64,000 bases of DNA from Dyella marensis. GTDB taxonomy: Bacteria; Pseudomonadota; Gammaproteobacteria; Xanthomonadales; Rhodanobacteraceae. This document shows, in pieces, positions 24,517 to 58,652 of the stretch. Under the pieces are notes generated by a model. The model saw only the letters and a program-made list of their open reading frames with translations, had not been told where the DNA came from and did no database searches. The stretch lies in contig NZ_FONH01000003.1 of the NCBI RefSeq assembly GCF_900112865.1, positions 204,005 to 268,004 of the forward strand, written 5' to 3'. The position numbers were made by a program, and so were the translations under genes. The stretch's first letter is position 1, and the number at the start of each line of letters is the position of its first letter.

Positions 24517-24609
24517 GCAGGTTGGGGTGAGTCGAAGGCGAACCCCAACATAGCCACCTGCGAGCGCACCGCATCGTTGGGGTTCGCCTTCGGCTCACCC
24601 CAACCTACG
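24517..24609. repeat. Family B palindromic element between convergent genes
   Basis: Arms CAGGTTGGGGTGAGTCG and its mirror GGCTCACCCCAACCTACG each also contain an inner inverted GAACCCCAAC / GTTGGGGTTC, so the whole folds into a long hairpin. It fills the gap between the PAS-AraC stop (24512) and the stop of the leftward gene at 24616 and may act as a bidirectional terminator. Confidence 0.8.
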
Positions 24610-56597: not shown

Positions 56598-56644
56598 TTG
56601 TTCGGGTTTCTTGCGCTTGTCGCGATCCTCGGCGTGACGCTCCG

Positions 56645-56776
56645 CCCGGCCCCTCACCCCAGCCCTCTCCCCGGAGGGGAGAGGGGGCATGGTGGTGAGA
56701 TTCAGCGCCGCGCTCCGATTTGGAACTCTTCTCCCCTCCGGGGAGAAGATGCCGGTAGGCAGATGAGGGGCCGGGG
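56645..56776. repeat. Family C composite element
   Basis: Outer arms CCCGGCCCCTCA and TGAGGGGCCGGG face each other across 130 bp, and inside are two separate CCCTCTCCCC- or CTCCCCTCCGGGGAG-type hairpins. It is the first block of the repeat-filled gap 56598-57822, where no gene is supported. Confidence 0.75.
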
Positions 56777-56813
56777 CTCGCCTATTGGCTGGGTAGCATC
56801 GGAGCTCACCGCT

Positions 56814-56936
56814 CGTCATTCCGGCGTAGGCCGGAATCCAGTAGCGAAAACCCAGGGTTTCGCGACAACGCCGGTTTGGCTTTTCGCGACCATCGGGCGG
56901 CGTCGCTACTGGATTCCGGCCTGCGCCGGAATGACG
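56814..56936. repeat. Family A element, inverted relative to the array copies
   Basis: A 123-bp element whose interior (TAGCGAAAACC to GGTTTGGCTTTTCGCGACC) is the reverse complement of the interior of the elements at 57073, 57332 and 57591, while the arms remain in place. This shows that the family can occur in both orientations as a discrete unit. Confidence 0.85.
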
Positions 56937-56950
56937 AGCAAAGCGCCGGC

Positions 56951-57818
56951 GTAGGTTGGGGTGAGCGCAGCGAACCCCAACGTCGGCACATCGATATGCA
57001 CCGCAACGTTGGGGTGCGCCTGCGGCTTACCCCAACCTACGACGGTGGTTACGGCGGCTCGCCTCCCACCACCGTCATTCCGGCGCAGGCCGGAATCCAG
57101 TGACGACATCGTTCGGTAGTCGCGAAAAGCCAAACCGATGTTGTCGCGAACAGCCCAGGTTTTCGCTACTGGATTCCTGCCTGCGCAGGAATGACGAGCA
57201 AAGAACGGCGTAGGTTGGGGTGAGCGCAGCGAACCCCAACGTCGGCATATCGATACGCATCGCAACGTTGGGGTGCGCCTGCGGCTTACCCCAACCTACG
57301 GCGGTGGTTACGGCGGCTCGCCTCCCACCACCGTCATTCCGGCGCAGGCCGGAATCCAGTGACGACATCGTTCGGTGGTCGCGAAAGGCCAAACCGATGT
57401 TGTCGCGAACAGCCCAGGTTTTCGCTACTGGATTCCTGCCTGCGCAGGAATGACGAGCAAAGAACGGCGTAGGTTGGGGTGAGCGCAGCGAACCCCAACG
57501 TCGGCACATCGATGTGCACCGCAACGTTGGGGTGCGCCTGCGGCTTACCCCAACCTACGACGGTGGTTACGGCGGTTCGCCTCCCACCACCGTCATTCCG
57601 GCGCAGGCCGGAATCCAGTGACGACGTCGTTCGGTGGTCGCGAAAAGCCAAACCCATGTTGTCGCGAACAGCCCAGGTTTTCGCTACTGGATTCCTGCCT
57701 GCGCAGGAATGACGAGCCAAGAACGGCGTAGGTTGGGGTGAGCGCAGCGAACCCCAACGTCGGCATGTCGATACGCATCGCAACGTTGGGGTGCGCCTGC
57801 GGCTTACCCCAACCTACG
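56951..57818. repeat. Composite tandem array: three 259-bp units plus a terminal B element
   Basis: GTAGGTTGGGG recurs at 56951, 57210, 57469 and 57728, exactly 259 bp apart. Each full unit is a family B element of 91 bp, a short spacer, a family A element of 124 bp and another short spacer. The fourth unit has only its B element. B copies are 56951-57041, 57210-57300, 57469-57559 and 57728-57818; A copies are 57073-57196, 57332-57455 and 57591-57714. Units differ at only a few bases each, so the amplification is recent or homogenised. Long ORFs across it are an artefact of the repeat. Confidence 0.95.
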
Positions 57819-57822
57819 GCGG

Positions 57823-58101
57823 TTACGACGGTTGCTGTTGCCATTGCAGGCGTAGATGCGCCTGCGTGGCGCAGCGGGTGCCCATTTCGATGAAGGCGGC
57901 GATGCCGTCGAGCATGATTGGAAGTCGATGGGCATCGACACTGCCGCGTTCGTGCACCAATTCCGCCAGCAGTTTGACCGCGTGGTAGGCGTATTGAAGC
58001 CACTCGGTGGCATCGTTCAACAGTTCATCCGGCTCTGCGTTCGGGTCGGAGAAGTAGTTGGTGTGTCGAATGATCCAGGGTTCGCCAAAAACGTTGTTCA
58101 T
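57823..58101 (-). CDS. Small DUF3077-like protein of unknown function
   Basis: Cytoplasmic protein of 92 residues with an N-terminal segment rich in polar residues and two amphipathic helices (DELLNDATEWLQYAYHAVKLLAELV and LDGIAAFIEMGTRCATQAH). The layout recalls small DUF3077/DUF6124 proteins of pseudomonads, but that is a weak impression. The start ATG 58099-58101 has a strong AAGGAG ribosome-binding site 6 bases upstream. The TAA stop lies 4 bp past the end of the repeat array. The decayed gene upstream is on the same strand. Confidence 0.6.
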   Translation of the reverse strand: MNNVFGEPWIIRHTNYFSDPNAEPDELLNDATEWLQYAYHAVKLLAELVHERGSVDAHRLPIMLDGIAAFIEMGTRCATQAHLRLQWQQQPS

Positions 58102-58262
58102 AAGCAACTCCTTGCTAAGCGCCGCAGCTTCGCTCCGTAAACGGCATGCCGCAGACAACACGACAGGCCGCGATCACACGGACTCGAGGGTTCACCGGCG
58201 GCTCGAAGGTTGAGCGCCGGGCGGCTTGATTGAGGAAGTGGGTGCGGGGCTAGGAGGTTTCG

Positions 58263-58575
58263 CTATGGCACAGCCTTACGCGCCGGGTAGGACGGCTCGG
58301 AAAACTGTCTACGAAAACTCTTAGCCTGCGGTTCTTCAACCGTGTCCGCGGTGTCGTCGGACAGCCCGGGTGGGCGGTGAGGATGTCGCCGTGGGGATCG
58401 GCGAGCGCTTGCGTACCGTATGATCTGGGGTAGCCATGATCAACTGCTCCAAGTTGGTGATGGTCAGCGGGTCAGGGGTGTTCTCAGCACCCTTGGCCCG
58501 CGCTTCTCACAGCATTGCTGCCATGGTTGCCCGCGACGCGTACTCGAAACACTCCGCGGGCAACGCGATTCAAGC
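58263..58575 (-). pseudogene. Decayed gene with one stop and two frameshifts
   Basis: Read leftward, protein-like sequence continues across three frames. One frame gives EYASRATMAAML, an in-frame TGA (58507-58509), then DPLTITNLEQLIMATPDHT. A second frame gives ALADPHGDILTAHPG, and a third gives SDDTADTVEEPQAKSFRRQFSEPSYPARK up to TAG (58263-58265). Joined, they make about 100 residues of plausible small cytoplasmic protein. I do not recognise the family. The rest of 58102-58652 has no supported gene. Confidence 0.55.
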
Positions 58576-58652
58576 TATCAAAGCAACCCCAAATTGTCTT
58601 TAGTCGAAATCCGATTTGCAGAGGGCTTGGATTTCGCCGCCCGCGCGCTTCG

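Follow-up and report, generated by a model that had tools for sequence, protein, structure and literature searches.

Ordered clusters of REP sequences are already known as a phenomenon. In Pseudomonas fluorescens SBW25, REPINs form tandem clusters that include their flanks, among them GI-GIII arrays with a period of 184 bp (72 + 112), and the largest cluster holds four REPINs over more than 700 bp (Bertels and Rainey 2011, PMC3116915). In Stenotrophomonas, some repeated modules mix REPs of two RAYTs, and one third of the RAYT genes examined were directly associated with BIMEs (Nunvar 2010, PMC2817692). TnpA-REP has been found to cleave near GTAG REPs in vitro (PMC8266576). CGTC repeats are stated not to be associated with transposase genes in the part of Di Nocera 2013 available to us (PMC3733652). 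The same part describes CGTC-1 elements by an 8-bp stem that begins with AT, a 4-nt loop, a CCA tail and head-head dimers, with dRS3 as their representative in Neisseria, where they form mosaics with other repeats interspersed among them. It also reports that GTAG and CGTC REPs coexist in a few genomes, and within that part there is no mention of an ordered GTAG-CGTC tandem array. A literature search on repeats in Xanthomonadaceae found nothing.

A 259-bp tandem array of two REP doublets

The window that we analyzed, a stretch of 64,000 nucleotides from Dyella marensis (contig C25:204005-268004), contains an array of two palindromic elements, A and B. An earlier note made from the letters alone had described an exact period of 259 bp with four unit starts, and three lines of evidence confirmed both. 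TRF run on the window returned an array at 56903-57823 (period 259, 3.6 copies, 95% matches, 0% indels) with a score of 1693, compared with 62 for the next best array; self-identity was 0.964 at lag 259 and did not exceed 0.347 at lags of 20-399 outside 256-262; and the same 31-bp REP, GTAGGTTGGGGTGAGCGCAGCGAACCCCAAC, opens each unit at exactly 56951, 57210, 57469 and 57728. The array thus defined consists of three full 259-bp units and a partial fourth, head to tail, a copy number that is as given in a 44-contig draft assembly (5.0 Mb) without read support. The single-base differences noticed between units are indeed scattered, over 12 variable sites, with 6 differing positions between units 1 and 2, 6 between units 1 and 3, 10 between units 2 and 3, and no indels. 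The isolated copies reported elsewhere in the window were recovered as well, near 24519, 33897, 40338 and 43341 for B and near 1379 for A. As for the proposed order B-A-B-A-B-A-B, the alternation held and the completeness did not: an inverted, diverged copy of A (A', 56812-56936) had been overlooked, and the order of elements is A'-B-A-B-A-B-A-B. With alternating REP orientation, regular spacing and units repeated head to tail, the array has the features of a BIME or ordered REPIN cluster. The features of the locus are as follows.

56648..56780 (limits approximate), no strand assigned: palindromic repeat of a third family (CCCCTCACCCCAGCCCTCTCCCC / CCCCTCACCCC...GGGGAGAAG...GAGGGGCCGGGG), lying to the left of the array
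56812..56936, minus strand: A', an inverted and diverged CGTC-REP doublet, outermost element of the array, 86.5-87.3% identical to the array A units
56951..57040, plus strand: B1, GTAG-REP doublet (REPIN)
57041..57072, 57300-57331 and 57559-57590, plus strand: 32-bp linker of each unit, with a close variant on contig C5
57073..57198, plus strand: A1, CGTC-REP doublet
57210..57299, plus strand: B2, GTAG-REP doublet
57332..57457, plus strand: A2, CGTC-REP doublet
57469..57558, plus strand: B3, GTAG-REP doublet
57591..57716, plus strand: A3, CGTC-REP doublet
57728..57817, plus strand: B4, the GTAG-REP doublet with which the array ends, some 8 bp from the stop codon of the opposite-strand gene
57826..58101, minus strand: 91-aa open reading frame with the array at its 3' end; the gene family is matched 16 times in the genome
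58433..58598, minus strand: conserved structured leader of the gene module, 166 nt

The array lies between convergent genes, and part of its left flank is common to a paralogous locus on contig C37. Sequences similar to the third palindromic repeat were seen near the paired arms on contig C27 and near C28:623400.

B is a REPIN of the single RAYT gene

B consists of two inverted copies of a REP with a GTAG head, an 8-bp stem (GTTGGGGT) and an 11-nt loop, as in GTAG REPs. The 91-nt element folds as a single hairpin (-39 kcal/mol, z -9.5), the long hairpin of inverted REPs, and it is dispersed at high copy number, with 116 matches in the 2.09 Mb of the four large contigs. A search for tnpA-REP (RAYT) genes, suggested in the earlier note, found one in the genome, which matched NF047646 (REP-associated tyrosine transposase) with 187 bits (cut-off 80) and is homologous to E. 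coli TnpA-REP 4er8 (E 7e-45), the HMH and NPVKHG motifs both appearing in the alignment. This gene (contig C20; L009/L010, at L009 1201-2040) has GTAG REP doublets on both sides. Because the left REP of B is matched exactly (31/31 positions) by the REP pair downstream of the gene, as expected for a cognate RAYT, B is a REPIN of the genome's single RAYT.

A is a CGTC-1-type doublet

A comprises two inverted copies of CGTC-ATTCCGGC-GCAG-GCCGGAAT-CCAG, 126 bp in total, with a compensated stem change (CCTGC/GCAGG) in the right REP and a predicted fold of -46 kcal/mol (z -9.3). It shares with CGTC-1 the CGTC head, a stem of 8 bp whose first two positions are AT, a loop of 4 nt, the CCA tail and the head-head dimers, and nearly all full-length copies start with CGTC and finish with GACG or GACGAG. 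Judged by its sequence, A is therefore a CGTC-1-type REP doublet of the Neisseria dRS3 superfamily, a superfamily without a known transposase. The A-type motif CGTCATTCC did not flank a single one of the 30 RAYT loci examined in the family, and GTAG-type palindromes were near RAYT at more than half of these loci.

No transposase was seen near CGTC arms at the three places inspected, one of them partly masked. We considered whether A arms might flank a transposase, and rejected this as far as the sequence is readable: at the paired-arm places on contigs C27 and C28 there is a small gene or a masked stretch, or a transposase is lacking. At two places on C27 (C27:242273-243764, L124; and C27:167692-168961, L120, the latter partly masked), long inverted arms enclose a small gene whose leader is similar, each containing two CGTC REPs, a shared GC-rich palindrome and another repeat, with a B-type REP on both sides; these arms resemble an inverted duplication. 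Matches of A and B to Rfam microRNA families were weak and were set aside as chance hairpin matches.

No general pairing of A with B

Counts of A and B were made on the four largest contigs (2.09 Mb), and about 2.36 Mb, about half of the genome, was read directly. On these contigs the 116 matches of B stand beside 57 of A. Of the 54 A loci, only 3 have a B within 50 bp, where about 2 would be expected (P 0.33), an expectation raised by a crude estimate of the intergenic space that is probably too small. A-B pairs at unrelated sites are thus not above chance, whereas an excess would be expected of a RAYT-mobilised composite.

The best A-B composites outside the array are on contigs C37, C38, C13 and C5, the small contigs having been picked with a composite query, by which composites are over-represented. 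On C37 and C38 a single A-B pair is followed by the gene module, as at the array locus, with which they share a stretch of 0.88-1.03 kb (85-90%) that runs through B into the module; the composite on C13 has a degenerate module end, and C5 ends in B-linker-A-B, a candidate seed structure. On this evidence A and B together do not form a general mobile unit, and most of the best composites share one history, at the 3' end of a duplicated module. The earlier suggestion that RAYT-type activity acted on A and B as one unit is consequently not borne out: the REP of the RAYT gene matches B alone, the 30 RAYT loci lack the A-type motif, pairing is at chance, and the best composites are mostly linked to the module. 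A lies steadily 0-15 bp to the left of B (C27:404301 is an exception), and a target preference considered on these grounds was discarded since most of the cases are copies of one module-linked composite.

The gene module at the end of the array

The 91-aa frame next to the array gave no match in Pfam or NCBIfam. Its family has 16 matches in the array genome and 12 in the nearest relative, and its paralogues share around 750 bp, comprising the frame and its upstream region. Besides the leader and the 91-aa frame, the module has a conserved 33-aa frame, and it is dispersed, with copies in L205, L210, L214, L217, L220, L223, L226, L228, L230, L232 and L234. Among the copies read in the array genome, B is present at the 3' end of six and neither B nor A at that of five. 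In Dyella sp. SG609, only around 30 bp separate the regulator gene from the arsenate-reductase-like gene (L011 6580-6597), and around 2.05 kb, corresponding to 56598-58650 of the window with the third repeat, the array and the module, is absent at the same place. This difference may represent either an insertion in the array genome or a loss in SG609.

The base pairs of the leader, which is the upstream region of the module, covary strongly: among 17 sequences, both partners differ at 6 of the 41 pairs, compared with 2.5 in shuffles. In an alignment fitted to a model built from the leader, which leans towards structure and in which 27 of the 43 matches are full-length and the others partial and on the other strand, 31 pairs differ in both partners, compared with 18.2 in shuffles. 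The leader model matched in 9 of the 26 genera sampled in the family and in 11 of 41 genomes, a few of these matches being weak; the array genome has 23 matches, including partial and reverse-strand ones. On the strand opposite the leader, over the start region, Rfam SymR scored 63.1 bits in L242, the one occasion on which the cut-off of 61 was exceeded, 41-60 bits in other copies and 35.7 bits in the window. PtaRNA1 (Rfam) matched weakly on the same strand. The module may therefore be a family of small genes controlled by antisense RNA, and possibly a system similar to type I toxin-antitoxin systems.

Origin of the array

The A units of the array are 97.6-98.4% identical to each other, and the nearest A elsewhere (on C5) reaches 92.9%. 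The B copies of the array are 94-99% identical, and copies on C35 (98.9%) and C37 (97.8%) are equally close, so that B is a young dispersed subfamily and A the better marker for local amplification. As the array A units are closer to each other than to any outside copy or to A', the array was amplified locally, which supports a joint amplification of the A/B pair as the earlier note had put forward.

We consider it probable that the array, an ordered REP cluster of the BIME-like kind, arose by REP insertions beside a duplicating gene, and that its direct B repeats then underwent unequal recombination or slippage. What the elements are, their local amplification, their linkage to the module and the presence of the RAYT gene are directly visible; the mechanism of amplification and the order of events we infer. 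B and A would have inserted side by side where a single copy of the small multi-copy module has its 3' end and would have been carried to other sites as the module duplicated. At this locus, a B-linker-A-B arrangement like that on C5 would have provided two direct B repeats, and unequal recombination or replication slippage, aided by the strong hairpins, could then have amplified linker-A-B until three units were present. At least two steps would have been needed for this, and one of them probably copied a two-unit block. Four sites in or beside B alternate by unit (1=3, 2=4), which is the pattern expected from copying of a two-unit block and suggests such a step or gene conversion; the A sites do not show this alternation, so that only part of the duplication history can be read from the units. 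A further point against this account is that the linker common to the array and C5 means that the B-A-B unit was also copied between loci at least once. A is in the opposite orientation at C37 and at A', and so can apparently flip in place.

A less likely reading is that the RAYT drove a BIME expansion, cutting and joining single-stranded DNA at the B REPs and thereby multiplying B together with the trapped A. The genome has the cognate RAYT gene and its REPs, the cutting near GTAG REPs in vitro (PMC8266576) and the association of one third of RAYT genes with BIMEs (PMC2817692) lend it plausibility, and C5 offers a second B-linker-A-B unit. However, the array is on C25, apart from the RAYT gene on C20, there is no general A-B pairing, and homologous events account just as well for units that contain linkers and A. 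Compared with RAYT action on an A/B unit, slippage or unequal recombination is the simpler reading.

It is somewhat more doubtful that the array has been kept for a function, be it transcription termination or mRNA protection at two convergent 3' ends or the binding of gyrase or IHF reported for BIMEs. The strong single-strand folds of A and B (-46 and -39 kcal/mol, z about -9) and the position between convergent genes would suit such a role, and these hairpins may end or protect transcripts. Nevertheless, SG609 lacks the insert at the corresponding place, B or A is missing from many module copies, and there is no need to assume a specific function of the array. It is unlikely that CGTC REPs multiplied as passengers, a doublet between two GTAG REPINs being copied by the RAYT as B-A-B with the array and the C5 unit as products. 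An assembly artefact giving a wrong number of units is very unlikely: the draft is in 44 contigs and other copies are at contig ends (C5, C35 and C38), yet the units have private substitutions and therefore are not one unit copied by the assembler, and assemblers usually collapse rather than expand repeats.

Comparison with known systems

The array has close counterparts among described REP clusters. Like those of SBW25, it consists of tandem, near-identical units with their flanks, in which two REP families alternate at a fixed period. In SBW25, however, both families are RAYT-linked REPs, whereas in the Dyella array one partner is a CGTC REP without a known transposase, and both partners are doublets. 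The BIMEs and hybrid BIMEs of Stenotrophomonas, also a gammaproteobacterium, resemble it in having inverted REPs in repeated modules, but their REPs are all of the GTAG/GTGG type (PMC2817692). The Dyella RAYT is a clear homologue of E. coli TnpA-REP (PDB 4er8). Within the classes set out in the available part of Di Nocera 2013 (PMC3733652), B fits GTAG and A fits the CGTC-1 head-head dimers.

The array thus combines a CGTC REP, from a superfamily without a known transposase, and a RAYT-linked REPIN in one ordered structure, and the only RAYT gene of the genome belongs to the NF047646 family. The single-copy and two-B paralogous loci in the same genome make the amplification and passenger hypotheses testable. 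We found no earlier description of a GTAG-CGTC pairing in one array; the array is essentially an ordinary case of a known type of repeat cluster, in which the combination of parts is new.
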